64,000 nt of DNA from Flavobacteriales bacterium. GTDB lineage: Bacteria; Bacteroidota; Bacteroidia; Flavobacteriales_F; PHOS-HE28. The stretch is from contig JAHBUK010000002.1 of assembly GCA_019638115.1 (NCBI GenBank), positions 565,867 through 629,866 of the forward strand, written 5' to 3'. Shown one piece after another: positions 58,370 to 64,000 of the stretch (its first letter is position 1; every line of letters begins with the position of its first letter). Position numbers and translations under genes: made by a program. The notes beneath the pieces are model-generated. The model was not told the DNA's origin. It worked only from the letters and a program-made list of their open reading frames with translations, and did not search any database.

Positions 58370-58678
58370 CTACACGGTCAGCATCAGCTCATTCAACTCC
58401 CCCCTCACCTCCTCCCACTCCCCCAGATACCCCCGCATCAAGCTCTTCCACAGCTTCCCGTGGTTGGGCACCCGCAGGTGCAGCAACTCGTGCACGATCA
58501 CATAGTCCTGCAGGCGGGGCGGCAGCGTGAGCAGTTCGTCGTTGAAGTTCAGGTGACCGTTGGTGCTGCAGCTGGCCCACTTGCGGCGCATGGGGCGGAT
58601 ACCCAGCCACACCACCTCCACCCCGATGCGGGCGGACCACTCGCGGACACGTTGCTTGAAGGCGGCGCGGGCGTCCAT
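58370..58678 (-). CDS. YgjP/SprT-like M48 family metallopeptidase (short form)
   Basis: 102 residues, the C-terminal catalytic half of the YgjP family: RPMRRKWASCSTNGHLNFNDELLTLP then YVIVHELLHLRVPNHGKLW with the zinc motif HELLH (63-67) and a third ligand near H73. Full-length family members are about twice this size; short ones next to type I restriction genes are a known arrangement. The start overlaps the hsdR stop by one base, so it is translated after hsdR. Confidence 0.83.
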   Translation of the reverse strand: MDARAAFKQRVREWSARIGVEVVWLGIRPMRRKWASCSTNGHLNFNDELLTLPPRLQDYVIVHELLHLRVPNHGKLWKSLMRGYLGEWEEVRGELNELMLTV

Positions 58679-61600
58679 CAGATGCGATCGGCTTTCTCCA
58701 ACAACGTGAACAGCCCATCCACCACCCGCGTCACTTGGTCCAGATCGTCGAGCTGGGCGTAGATGGCGAAGGTGACCTTCTTGCGCAGCTCGCGCAGGTC
58801 CTTCTCGCTCGTCTTCCAGTGGGGGAAGGCCACGAAGGCCTCCTTGATCTTGCGGCTCACCGCCTCGGCATCGTTCACCTTCGCGTCCAGCAGGGTGCGG
58901 TACACGAAGTAGGTGAGGCCGTCGAAGCCCTTGGCGGCCTGCTCCTGCTTGCGCTGCTCGTTCAGCTCCACCTCCTTCATCAGGTCGGCCAGGGCGTCGG
59001 CGGTACTGGTCTGGCGGCTCTCGAAGCTCTCCTGCACGGCGCGGGCGCGCTCGGCCATGGCGATCAGGTAGGGATCGTCGCTGTGCTCATCGGCGTGCTT
59101 CTCGATGCTCTTGATCAGGTTGATCACCTTGGTGCCGTCGCCGGCGTGCTTCTGCTTGATGAGCTCGATGGTGCGTTCGTTGATGGGCACGAACTCCATG
59201 GGCGCGCTCACATCGCCCACGGTGATGTTCTGCTGCACCAGCGCCGCCGTCTTGCGCTGGAACTCGCGGTCCACCTCCACGCGCTTGGTGTAGGCCTTGC
59301 GCACCACCTGGTAGATGGCGCTGAGCGTGGCGTAGGTGTCGATGTAGGGGCGCAGGAAGGCATCGGGGCTGATGATCTCGTAGAGCATCTCCACCTCCTT
59401 GTACTCCTTGAAGAACTCCTTGCGGCGCTCGGGGTCGCGGAAGTGCTCGATGAGGCCGTCCACGTCGCGGTCGTCGAAGCGGCCGCCGATGAGCTGGAGG
59501 TAGGCGGGCACCTTCTGCTCCATCTTGTTCTTGAACAGGCCCTTCAGCAGGGCGATGTCCTTCACGATGGCGTTGATCTCCTCGCTGTCGAAGGCCAGGG
59601 CCTTCTCCAGCTTGTCGAAGATGCCCACGAAGTCCAGCACGAAGCCGTGGGGCTTCACCATCTCGGCCTGCTCGTTCTCGTACGGTCGGTTCACCCGGGC
59701 GATGGCCTGAAGCAGCGTGTGGTCGCGCATGGGCTTGTCCAGGTACATGGCGTAGAGCACGGGCGCGTCGTAGCCGGTGAGCAGCTTCTCGGTGACGATG
59801 AGGATCTTGGGCTGCTGGTCCAGCTTGGTGAAGGCCTTGCGGATCTGCCGCTCCTTCTTCTCGTCCAGGTGGAAGGCCTTGAGCGTAGTGCTGTCGTTGT
59901 TGTTACCGGTGTAGACCACCCCGCTGTATTCGGCGGGCAGGAACTCGTCCAGCGCGTGCTTGTACAGGGCGCAGGCCTCGCGGTCCACGCCTACGAGGAA
60001 GGCCTTGTAGCCGAGCGGCTCCACGTTCTCGGTGTAGTGCCTGGCCACGAATTCGGCCACCTTGCGGATGCGCTCCTTGCCCTTCAGGAAGTTCTTCAGG
60101 TTCACGGCGCGGTCCAGCACCTTGTTCAGGTGCTCGATGTCCGCCAGCCCCTCGGCCTCGGCCAGGCTGAGGAACTCCTTGTCCAGCGTGTCGTGCGGCA
60201 CCAGCAGCTCGTTGGGCGCCAGGTTGTAGTACAGCGGCAGCGTGGTGCCGTCGGCGATGCTGTCGGCGATGCTGTACTTGTGCAGGTAGCCTTTGTCGTC
60301 CTCGCCGCCGAAGGTCTTGAAGGTGCCGCGCCCATAGGCCGTCTTGTCGATGGGCGTGCCGGTGAAGCCCAGGTAGCTGGCGTTGGGCAGGCCGGCCATG
60401 AGGAAGTTGCCCAGGTCGCCGCCCGTGGTGCGGTGCGCCTCGTCGATCAGCACGTAGATGTTCTTCCGCGTGTTGATGTTGGCGGGCATGTCGCGGAACT
60501 TGTGCACCATGCACACCACGATGCCGCGGTAGTCGTCCTTCAGCAGCCGGTTCAATTTGCTGATGCTCTCGGCGTGCTCCACGTTGCCGAGGCCCAGCGC
60601 CGCCAGGTTCTTCAGCATCTGGTCCTCCAGCTCGTTGCGGTCGATCATCAACAGCACCGTGGGCTTGTCGGCCTCGGGGGCCTTGAAGAGCTGCTCGGCG
60701 GCCTTGATCATGGTGAAGGTCTTGCCGCTGCCCTGCGTGTGCCACACCAGGCCGCGCCGCTTCACCGGGTCCAGCGCGCGGTGCACCACGCGCTCCACGG
60801 CGGTGGTCTGGTGCTGGCGCAGGATGAACTTGTTCAGCTCCTCGTCCTTCTCGGCAAAGACGATGTAGTCCTTCAGCAGGGCCAGCACCTGGGGGATGGC
60901 GCAGAAGGTTTTGACTTTCGCCTCCAGCCGGCCGGGGGTGTAGGTTGGCGGACCTCCCGGTCCGCCCGAAAACCCCGCCGAAGCCGAGCTGTGTGGCGGA
61001 CCGGTAGGTCCGCCTACCGGGGGTGGCTCTCCCGCGCCCATCGGCGGACCGGGAGGTCCGCCTACCGTCAACTCGTCCTTCTCGTAGAAGAGAAACTCCC
61101 CAGCTTTCAGCCCGCTCTCAGTCGGATTGTTGCGGATGTAGTCCAGCACCTGCTCGAAGTGATCCTCATTGCGGATCAGCCGATCCCAGTAATCGTCCAT
61201 CCACAGTGCACCCGACTTTCCGAGGCGTTTGTTCACCTCGCGGGCGCTGAAGCTCTTCCAAGACTTCACGATATCGCCCACTGTGTGGTATCCCAGCGGA
61301 CGGAACAGCACGTGCACGTGGTTCGGCATCACCACATAGCTCACCAGCTCGAAGTGTTGGCCATCGAAGTGCTGGAGGGTGTCACCCACGATACGGGCAA
61401 GTGACGGGTCACGGAACGGGCAGGAGCCTTTACCGGCATCCAGCCATTTATCCATCCGGCGGCTGAAGCGATCGAAGTACTCCAGTTCGGTGGCCTCGGT
61501 CCACGGCTCGGGATGGGCTCTCAACCACGCATTGCGTTCGGCGGTCCATTCGTCCAACACTTCACGTGGAAGTGAATCGCCCATGCGCCAGGTGACCGAG

Positions 61601-62511
61601 CAGTACACGCCGGGTTGGTGCCAATGCGGCAAACGATGTTCGCGCGGGTTGACGGAAGAGTACGGGTCGAAGAAGCGCCCGGTGGGCGGACCTCCCGGTC
61701 CGCCACCATTTCCTCCACCGGAGCGCACCGGCGGACCGGGAGGTCCGCCTACCGTATCCCTCACCAGCTTCCACTCGAAAATGTTCCGATTCACCATGTT
61801 CCAGGTCACACCATACTTGAAGCCGATGGCGTCGGTGGCGGTGAAAAGCTGCTGCGGCACCATCACCTCGGGCGTTTCGCGCTGGTAGCGGCGCAGCTGG
61901 TCAATGCCCAGGGCGATGCCCTCGTCCTTGGTGGCGTTCTTGCACTCCACCACCAGCACGGGGATGCCGTTGATGAGGAACACCACATCCTGCCGCGTAG
62001 TGTGGTGGCCGTTGTTGGTCACCCACTCCTCGGTGACCTCGTAGACGTTGTTGTCCTGGGGTGGCGGACCTCCCGGTCCGCCCGAAACACTGCCCGTGCC
62101 GGTGCTCTGTGGCGGAGCGGGAGCTCCGCCTACCGAAGGCCCGCCGATCGCCGAATAATCGATGAGCACCAGGTCGCGCTCGCGGTTCTCTTCGTGGTCG
62201 AAGAACTTGCCCTGGTTGCGCAGGTGGGCCAGGAACTCGCGGTTGCCGTAGATGTCCGCGTGCAGGTGGCGCAGCTTGCCGGGCAGGGCGCCGGGGGCAT
62301 CAGTGTAGCGTGGGTTGAAGCGCCGCACTTGGGCGTGCAGCAGCTCGTCGAAGAAGAGCGAAGCGTTGCGCGCCCGTTCACTGCCCTGTGCAGCGGCATC
62401 GAAACCCCGGCGCCGCTCCGCTTCCTCGCGCGGCACCACGGCCCAGCCCAGCTCCTGCGCATAGGCCAGGATGCGCGCTTGTACGGTCTTGTGTTCGCCG
62501 GGGGTGGGCAT
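58678..62511 (-). CDS. hsdR: Type I restriction endonuclease subunit R with nested RAYT domain
   Basis: 1277 residues. The nuclease domain has D175, E189 and K191 (in VVECKNA); the helicase has TQGSGKT (592-598), DEAH (690-693) and GFTGTP (715-720); the C-terminal helical domain is complete. Two stretches do not belong: residues about 122-153 (IGGPSVGGAPAPP...SGGPGGPPP), and about 255-527, where GGPPGPP runs flank a whole Y1/HUH transposase domain with MPNHVHV (H398, H400) and DYIRNNP (probable catalytic Tyr458). They are encoded by REP-like palindromes and a RAYT inserted in frame. The start overlaps the upstream ATPase stop (TAATG). hsdM and hsdS are not in the window. Confidence 0.92.
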   Translation of the reverse strand: MPTPGEHKTVQARILAYAQELGWAVVPREEAERRRGFDAAAQGSERARNASLFFDELLHAQVRRFNPRYTDAPGALPGKLRHLHADIYGNREFLAHLRNQGKFFDHEENRERDLVLIDYSAIGGPSVGGAPAPPQSTGTGSVSGGPGGPPPQDNNVYEVTEEWVTNNGHHTTRQDVVFLINGIPVLVVECKNATKDEGIALGIDQLRRYQRETPEVMVPQQLFTATDAIGFKYGVTWNMVNRNIFEWKLVRDTVGGPPGPPVRSGGGNGGGPGGPPTGRFFDPYSSVNPREHRLPHWHQPGVYCSVTWRMGDSLPREVLDEWTAERNAWLRAHPEPWTEATELEYFDRFSRRMDKWLDAGKGSCPFRDPSLARIVGDTLQHFDGQHFELVSYVVMPNHVHVLFRPLGYHTVGDIVKSWKSFSAREVNKRLGKSGALWMDDYWDRLIRNEDHFEQVLDYIRNNPTESGLKAGEFLFYEKDELTVGGPPGPPMGAGEPPPVGGPTGPPHSSASAGFSGGPGGPPTYTPGRLEAKVKTFCAIPQVLALLKDYIVFAEKDEELNKFILRQHQTTAVERVVHRALDPVKRRGLVWHTQGSGKTFTMIKAAEQLFKAPEADKPTVLLMIDRNELEDQMLKNLAALGLGNVEHAESISKLNRLLKDDYRGIVVCMVHKFRDMPANINTRKNIYVLIDEAHRTTGGDLGNFLMAGLPNASYLGFTGTPIDKTAYGRGTFKTFGGEDDKGYLHKYSIADSIADGTTLPLYYNLAPNELLVPHDTLDKEFLSLAEAEGLADIEHLNKVLDRAVNLKNFLKGKERIRKVAEFVARHYTENVEPLGYKAFLVGVDREACALYKHALDEFLPAEYSGVVYTGNNNDSTTLKAFHLDEKKERQIRKAFTKLDQQPKILIVTEKLLTGYDAPVLYAMYLDKPMRDHTLLQAIARVNRPYENEQAEMVKPHGFVLDFVGIFDKLEKALAFDSEEINAIVKDIALLKGLFKNKMEQKVPAYLQLIGGRFDDRDVDGLIEHFRDPERRKEFFKEYKEVEMLYEIISPDAFLRPYIDTYATLSAIYQVVRKAYTKRVEVDREFQRKTAALVQQNITVGDVSAPMEFVPINERTIELIKQKHAGDGTKVINLIKSIEKHADEHSDDPYLIAMAERARAVQESFESRQTSTADALADLMKEVELNEQRKQEQAAKGFDGLTYFVYRTLLDAKVNDAEAVSRKIKEAFVAFPHWKTSEKDLRELRKKVTFAIYAQLDDLDQVTRVVDGLFTLLEKADRI
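60947..61754 (-). mobile_element. RAYT (REP-associated tyrosine transposase) flanked by REP-like palindromes, inside hsdR
   Basis: The left border has palindromes at 60947-60966, 60995-61014 and 61043-61062 and the right border at 61685-61704 and 61730-61749, all variants of GGCGGACC-(TCCC or GGGA or GGTA)-GGTCCGCC; several carry a TACCG tail. Between them (about 61066-61684) is the Y1 transposase region, with sequence motifs of standalone RAYTs (FFDPYSS...PHWHQPGVYCSVTWRMGD, MPNHVHVLFRPLG, YWDRLIRNEDHF). It reads in the same strand and frame as hsdR and has no stop codon. An internal ATG at 61584 could give an independent product. Confidence 0.85.
62063..62135. repeat. Pair of REP-like palindromes in the hsdR nuclease region
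   Basis: GGCGGACCTCCCGGTCCGCC (62063-62082) and GGCGGAGCGGGAGCTCCGCC (62111-62130, followed by TACCG) face each other 28 bases apart. The second differs from the consensus at two positions that pair with each other, so the palindrome is kept. The pair is translated as glycine/proline-rich sequence in hsdR. Confidence 0.88.
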
Positions 62512-64000
62512 TAAGCCTTGGCTTTAGCAGCTTTTGCAGCCTTAATCAACTTACGTCGATTCATCGTGGCTTCAACCAATGCCTTCAGCGAAGCAATATC
62601 ATTCGCAAGTTCCGCAGGTGTGGGCACCGGCGCCGCTTTAGCCGAGGAAGGATCGTGTGCTGATACTACATCACTGCTACGGGAGTGCAGCTTGTCGATC
62701 ATCTCGTATTCACGTTGGTCAAAGCCGACAACTTCTTCGAGAGCATCAACCCGGATCCAATCTCTATAGCGTTTCACTGCCCCATTGAAGACAACATCCT
62801 GAATCACACGCTCAAGAGTTGCCCGTAATCCATCGTAAGCGCTCCGCATGTTGCGGATATCCTCTTCTCCAGGATAGGCAGGCCATGCCTTTGCCAGTTT
62901 CGTCTGTGTCTTCTCTAGCTTGTCAATGCGCTCTTTGTAGCCTTGATGGTCCCAAGGCAAACCGCTCATTACATTGCCAGGGGTAGAGTTGAGCCATTGC
63001 AAATGGCTGCTGTTGCTTGGGATTCCGGCTGCCTCAATCTCGTCAGACAGTTGACCAAGGAATGAAGTGTCATGCGTGAAAACTATTACTTGCCTCTTCC
63101 TAGCCTCTTCAACTAAGCGCCTTGCGACGTCGCGTCTTTTCCAATGATCCAGAGACGACACGGGGTCGTCAAACACGATACCACAGGTATGGTTGGCCAA
63201 TGACAATTCCGCAAAGAAAGACGCCAGTGCTATCGATCTCTGTTCACCCTCGCTCAGTATCTCATCGAGCTTCTTTGCCGTTGGCATGTCGAGTACAAGT
63301 TGAAGAAGCATCTTTCCCCTATCATTCCTCTCCTTGAGCTTGGTCCTTATGTGTGTCACATTCAACTTGACCAGTTCCGCATCAAGTGCGTCCTTGAGGT
63401 CTTTAGACACAGCGGAACTTGCAAGCTCTTTGGCCTTGCGGGAAATCGCAGTAGTTCCCAGTCCCGACTTTGCATCCTCAAGTAACTTGCGCGTCTTCAT
63501 TCGTTGCAGAAGATCAAGCATAGGCTGAAGGATCTGCGCTAAAGCCTGTCTACTTGCCAACTCATTGCGTTCCGCTTCTAGCATCTTCTTGGCCTCCGGA
63601 TCCGAAGCCTTCATGTATGAGCGCGCAAGAATCAGTTGGCGCGCCGCTAAGGACCGAATAGAAGACCTTGGGCAGGGCGCTAATGCAGGAACATTTAGCC
63701 AGGAATGCGTTTCTAGGGATGCAAGCATCCAATCCCTTCGCTTCACAATGCTCTCTGCCCAATTATCGATACTAATAGCCAAGGCCTCATCATGGGTGGC
63801 AATCTCCGCTCTCAGGGTAGCATCCATGCCAACGGACATACTGGCTGCTTCGATCTTACCCTTCGCAACATTTAATGCGTCAGCTGCCTCCTTCGCCTTC
63901 TTGGAAACATCATCCTTGACGTATTTCTCAAATCGCTTCAACCTGTCTGCGCCATCATTCAGAACTTCTTGGCACAGAGGGCACACGGCTGCATTATCCG
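62511..64000 (-). CDS. Zn-hook AAA/ABC ATPase of restriction locus, RloC-like (5' end outside window)
   Basis: The frame is open to the window edge; the first visible residues include CPLCQ, a zinc-hook at the tip of a coiled-coil, followed by helical segments. The ABC signature is LSEGEQRS (244-251 from the first GTG at 63986), Walker B VFDDPVSSLDH (271-281) and the H-loop VIVFTHDTSFL. The N-terminal Walker A half lies outside. The C-terminal region has R388-x-x-x-E392 and later histidines (H434, H444), compatible with but not proof of the Arg-Glu-His triad of PrrC/RloC anticodon nucleases. The stop overlaps the hsdR start, typical of defence genes embedded in type I systems. Confidence 0.75.
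   Translation of the reverse strand, partial: DNAAVCPLCQEVLNDGADRLKRFEKYVKDDVSKKAKEAADALNVAKGKIEAASMSVGMDATLRAEIATHDEALAISIDNWAESIVKRRDWMLASLETHSWLNVPALAPCPRSSIRSLAARQLILARSYMKASDPEAKKMLEAERNELASRQALAQILQPMLDLLQRMKTRKLLEDAKSGLGTTAISRKAKELASSAVSKDLKDALDAELVKLNVTHIRTKLKERNDRGKMLLQLVLDMPTAKKLDEILSEGEQRSIALASFFAELSLANHTCGIVFDDPVSSLDHWKRRDVARRLVEEARKRQVIVFTHDTSFLGQLSDEIEAAGIPSNSSHLQWLNSTPGNVMSGLPWDHQGYKERIDKLEKTQTKLAKAWPAYPGEEDIRNMRSAYDGLRATLERVIQDVVFNGAVKRYRDWIRVDALEEVVGFDQREYEMIDKLHSRSSDVVSAHDPSSAKAAPVPTPAELANDIASLKALVEATMNRRKLIKAAKAAKAKA

Follow-up and report, generated by a model that had tools for sequence, protein, structure and literature searches.

Organization of the hsdR locus

The window (the whole 64,000-nucleotide stretch of Flavobacteriales DNA analysed) carries on its minus strand a single open frame of 1277 residues (58678-62511), without interruption, which by ORF, Pfam, and NCBIfam analysis (TIGR00348 at 422 bits) is hsdR, encoding a type I restriction subunit with a nested REP-associated transposase (RAYT). 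The order of Pfam domains in the protein is HSDR_N (residues 6-234), Y1_Tnp (385-462), SWI2_SNF2 (567-786), and T1R_D3 (884-961). Padloc identifies REase_I and MTase_I in the operon, hsdS being recognised by its sequence and place, and the combination of an HSDR_N nuclease, an SWI2/SNF2 helicase, and operonic hsdM and hsdS genes is that of a type I system; the HsdR motifs ECK, Q..RY, GSGKT, and DEAH are all intact. An accessory gene between hsdS and hsdR (62511-63999, on to G000:C2:631010) matches padloc PDC-S06; a different gene, of 871 residues, takes its place in G002 (Flavobacteriales MAG BAC5) and G013 (MAG_25).

Comparison with an empty relative, the sister species G007, sets the edges of two inserts within the frame. 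The first piece of the HsdR nuclease domain (residues 1-119; 62155-62511), as defined by alignment with the empty G007 allele, is followed by insert 1 (62053-62154), an in-frame REPIN that has no counterpart in G007, G057, or G151, and then by the second piece of the nuclease domain (residues 154-248; 61768-62052), which is assigned from Pfam and motifs and includes ECK and Q..RY. Insert 2 (60934-61767) separates the nuclease from the helicase and C-terminal part (residues 527-1277; 58681-60933, likewise assigned from Pfam and motifs), and comprises a 5' linker (61675-61767), in which a REPIN is translated as GGPPGPP...GGPGGPP (palindromes 61685-61704 and 61730-61749), the RAYT domain itself (residues 280-479; 61075-61674), and a 3' linker (60934-61074) with three REP palindromes at 60947, 60995, and 61043.

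The RAYT domain, assigned in part from PDB entry 4er8, is matched by Pfam Y1_Tnp (36 bits, above the cut-off of 23; E 8e-9), scores 69.5 bits with the NCBIfam RAYT model NF047646, below its cut-off of 80, and contains the HUH motif MPNHVHVLF (61303-61329) and the tyrosine motif YIRNNP (61123-61140). AlphaFold predictions from alignments of three rows had mean pLDDT values of 53 for the RAYT domain and 32 for HsdR residues 1-756; Foldseek searches with the low-confidence RAYT-domain model gave weak matches, the best being an IS200/IS605 transposase (E 0.17), so that these models are too poor to bear on the fold.

An earlier note on this DNA had proposed that the HsdR frame runs unbroken through extra residues with the HUH and YIRNNP motifs of a REP-associated transposase, that these residues are nested as an insertion between nuclease and helicase, and that the GGPPGPP runs beside them are translated palindromes. 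All of this is borne out, by the domain order, the motifs, and the empty alleles, and the five palindromes of the note were located. A stop or frameshift in the region, which the note had named as counting against it, was sought and none was found; the G002 and G013 assemblies have the same layout.

Filled and empty alleles

In G007 the same operon has no insert at either hsdR place and none in hsdM, and its HsdR is 96% identical to that of the window over query residues 1-315. The G007 linkers, TEPGNNVYEV and WKHEEVGRLE, are similar to the linkers found in the more distantly related HsdRs of G057 and G151, which indicates that the window hsdR has received two in-frame inserts, i.e. a bare REPIN and a RAYT plus REPs. 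An ancestral HsdR domain is ruled out, the region being empty in G007, G057, G151, and most of the hsdR copies found in family f72; homologues either lack the region or have palindromes too, so that the general sharing of a palindrome-free region, which the earlier note had envisaged as a counter-case, was not found.

All three inserts (two in hsdR and one in hsdM) are also present in G002 and G013, two other species of the genus, and G003 retains that in hsdM. The genes next to the operon vary among these genomes, as do hsdS and the accessory gene, a pattern that would fit a horizontally moving operon. A scan of contigs with two peptide patterns retrieved the two sister copies of hsdR alone, with no standalone RAYT among the matches that could be a close donor; three distant matches were obtained from the plasmid collection and none from viral contigs. 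The standalone RAYTs of the genus (L074, L030, and L068) have in-frame REPs at two places, the N-terminus and the loop that separates the HUH motif from the tyrosine motif.

REP hairpins in hsdR and hsdM

The RAYT in the window hsdR is bracketed by inverted REP hairpins, GGCGGACC-tccc-GGTCCGCC, the translated forms of which are GGPPGPP and GGPGGPP. In addition to the five palindromes at 60947, 60995, 61043, 61685, and 61730, there are two in insert 1 (62063-62082 and 62111-62130), the latter of which, GGCGGAGC..GCTCCGCC, has a compensated base pair, and a third hairpin pair lies in hsdM, beyond the window and ~5 kb from hsdR. The nuclease-domain pair, the hsdM pair, and the recurrence in other DNA-modification genes described below were overlooked in the earlier note.

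The 4.06 Mb genome contains the exact pattern GGCGGACCNNNNGGTCCGCC at 8 places, each of them in the window hsdR or hsdM, versus 0 in a reversed control, so that the clustering is not a chance effect; a relaxed REP pattern occurs at 9 places, none of them outside these two genes. In G002, G013, and G003, too, the exact pattern is limited to hsdM/hsdR, and the relaxed pattern gives one or two stray matches, about the reversed-control level. Further copies of the palindrome elsewhere in the genome, which the earlier note had suggested looking for, were found in hsdM, but not outside hsdM and hsdR; a dispersed, genome-wide REPIN population was not found in the window's genome.

The arrangement is that of a REPIN, with inverted REPs, loops of TCCC then GGGA, and left outer feet of GGTA, the right feet being looser. 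The left outer foot is GGTA in all five window cases and in the G003 hsdM, GGAA in all four of G013, and GGAA or GGAG in G002; a GTAG-like foot is evident in that GGTAG precedes the stem in 5/5 window left arms, with GGAAG in G013. The REP foot therefore varies together with the RAYT lineage (GGTA versus GGAA/GGAG), and that several sites have changed in parallel suggests concerted evolution, which would be driven by the resident RAYT. This parallel change is the best sign available that the RAYT acts on these REPINs. The palindromes have fewer synonymous changes than HsdR, significantly so in one of three pairs.

Selection and codon divergence

Purifying selection on the RAYT codons is strong, with dN/dS values of 0.05, 0.08, and 0.11 in three allele pairs; those for the HsdR parts in the same pairs are 0.06-0.32. 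The HUH and tyrosine residues are invariant among the hsdR RAYT alleles. Insertion, taken together with purifying selection on both parts, argues that a mobile element lives inside this conserved gene without breaking its frame, as the earlier note had supposed.

The GC3 of the RAYT is lower than that of HsdR in every allele, which suggests a foreign origin. Between the window and G002, fourfold sites differ more often in the RAYT (37/82) than in HsdR (80/397; p 7.5e-6); the excess is not significant in the other two pairs, so a separate history of the RAYT cassette is only hinted at.

Recurrence in hsdR of a second family and in other genes

A RAYT is present at the same hsdR junction in three genomes of another family (G436, G327, and G475), where the hairpins are instead GGCGGGTT and GGCGGACA. 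The hsdR RAYTs form one clade across the two families (support 98/97), between which the RAYTs are 53% identical, compared with 80% for the HsdR helicase parts. In the HsdR tree, some forks of which are not firm, filled and empty alleles are interleaved. In family f72 the empty allele of G240 is 98% identical to the filled allele of G327, which exceeds it by 963 nucleotides and has clean flanks; here, as in the comparison with G007, the filled and empty alleles differ in length by a number divisible by three. Repeated insertion may account for this, as may a single old insertion, followed by more rapid change of the RAYT together with transfer and replacement. The empty G240 allele (L166) shares the filled-type right flank, PGHLETKV, with that of G327 (L115), possibly as the scar of an excision or as a conversion tract.

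The search for further cases covered a phylum sample of 395 genomes, queried first with the hsdR RAYT and next with a wider alignment, and 98 genomes of one class, for which the RAYT model of NCBI was used; the wider alignment, unlike the NCBI model, was partly made from nested copies. In the Hma defence system, RAYTs are nested in the HmaB methylase, at one site in G424 and G532 and at another in G229, each enzyme being empty at the other's site (L118, L119, and L120). In-frame RAYTs also occur in a type IIG enzyme in G448, in a BREX PglX-type methylase (G495:C154; L164:2530-6147), where the RAYT is from another branch, and in the housekeeping helicase RecG (G459:C58; L165:3-1556), where it lies just before the SATPIPRTL motif and where the left side is cut by the contig edge. 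Among the long RAYT frames examined in the phylum sample, no nested host unrelated to DNA processing was found; the apparent excess in DNA-processing genes is an impression from these cases.

Some long frames were rejected, i.e. those of G034, G293, and G000:C3, which are spurious or not nested (open lead-ins), and those of G359 and G233, in which a RAYT is followed by an MsrB-like tail. In two genomes (L169:2029-3612 and L170:1690-3210) a long RAYT-like transposase continues in frame into an MsrB-like domain, which is a tail fusion. Elsewhere in the window's genome, an IS200-type transposase with YIQNQEEHH (L001; G000:C7:17121-20465) adjoins a short-repeat cluster read as CRPYGTG.

Discussion

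The preferred explanation is that a group-4-like RAYT with its REP hairpins inserted, in frame and stop-free, into the linker between the HsdR nuclease and helicase, with REPIN copies also inserting in frame into the HsdR nuclease domain and the HsdM of the same operon. The hsdR alleles compared share no start codon at the 5' junction of the RAYT or upstream of LPHW, and none of them has a stop after the tyrosine motif, so that a fused protein offers the simplest interpretation. The RAYT would then be translated, without processing, as an internal domain of one 1277-residue protein, with the translated hairpins likely acting as Gly/Pro linkers. It most likely retains HUH/tyrosine single-strand nuclease-ligase activity, acting on the REPINs of the operon, and HsdR probably keeps its own function alongside. 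Spread may occur with the mobile restriction operon, or via recombination between hsdR alleles, rather than by genome-wide scattering. This explanation as a whole, drawn from sequence comparisons, is considered probable.

The need for a functional HsdR alone would also give frame maintenance and some amino-acid constraint, and it is conceivable, if unlikely, that the RAYT and REPINs are passive passengers, now inactive, which HsdR and HsdM tolerate as surface loops, with stops being avoided because they would kill HsdR. REP insertions in the linkers of many proteins are indeed thought neutral (PMC3733652), and the small number of hairpins and their confinement to the operon, which set them apart from an active REPIN population, count against an active RAYT. 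The NCBIfam score below the RAYT cut-off also speaks against the preferred explanation. However, RAYT residues are conserved at least as well as those of HsdR at high synonymous divergence, including at the invariant HUH and tyrosine positions, and inert loops would not readily account for REP feet that change in concert. The strong purifying selection is also compatible with a co-opted domain, i.e. one whose fold now serves restriction, e.g. by binding single-stranded DNA during HsdR translocation, and no longer transposition, and every genuine nested host found is a DNA-processing enzyme; that most HsdR homologues, some of them 96-98% identical, lack the RAYT, and that the REPs remain attached with feet tracking the RAYT lineage, makes such a role rather improbable.

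Production of a separate transposase from within hsdR, which the earlier note had raised with a start at 61584, is very doubtful. Although some alleles have in-frame GTG, TTG, or ATG codons, none is conserved as a start before the RAYT core, and with no stop after the RAYT the product would continue into the helicase. The ATG at 61584 is residue 310, which belongs to a conserved N-terminal stretch of the RAYT (TWRM); initiation there is rejected since it would remove the N-terminal strand. An assembly or binning artefact, which might be suspected given that the comparison genomes are mostly metagenome assemblies, is likewise rejected as scarcely credible, because independent assemblies agree; the same hsdR layout in those of two sister species argues against assembly error or a frameshift, and diverged copies of the same junctions occur in three assemblies from within the genus and in three from another family.

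RAYTs are domesticated transposases, the benefit of which to the cell, and the means of their persistence, are debated. Nesting in defence enzymes would offer them a conserved and transferable home, and makes the question of persistence testable, e.g. by asking whether the fusion cuts REPs and whether the enzyme needs the domain. A bolder and tentative proposal, toward which present evidence inclines less than even, is that there is a class of REP transposases that no longer have genes of their own and live as in-frame domains of enzymes for DNA restriction, modification, and repair (HsdR, HmaB, type IIG, BREX PglX, and RecG). They would insert anew into empty alleles, at the same joints of the protein, and be carried by defence genes that move horizontally, i.e. 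a splice-free counterpart of homing elements. If general, this would represent a splice-free means for a transposase to persist within a protein gene, and long proteins dropped from RAYT surveys as fusions or errors would merit re-examination; unexpectedly long proteins were left out of one such survey (PMC6006769). No description of a whole RAYT nested in another gene was found in a literature search that covered subscription journals thinly.

Comparison with known systems

Inteins with homing endonucleases place a DNA-cutting domain in frame inside DNA-processing enzymes, with filled and empty alleles at one site. The window HsdR is similar in having an in-frame domain of a DNA-cutting type in a DNA-processing enzyme, with both filled and empty alleles. 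It differs in that the domain is of the HUH nuclease type and the linkers are Gly/Pro-rich hairpin translations; no intein or splicing family is among the Pfam matches of the protein.

With respect to RAYTs, the closest likeness is to TnpA-REP/RAYT subclass 2.4 (Bertels group 4), which is common in Bacteroidetes and has REPs in frame within its own gene (PMC6006769). The window RAYT has the motifs of this subclass, NHVH (NH[IFV]H) and YIRNNP (YIxNNP), and flanking REPs with a GTAG-like foot; unlike subclass 2.4, however, it lies entire inside another gene, lacking the stop and conserved start that a standalone gene would have. In-frame REPs are also known from protein-coding genes, including many for DNA repair, as are the Rickettsia palindromic elements (RPE) (PMC3733652). 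These resemble the window inserts in being in-frame palindromes within protein genes, but encode tens of residues and no transposase, whereas insert 2 carries an entire RAYT domain.
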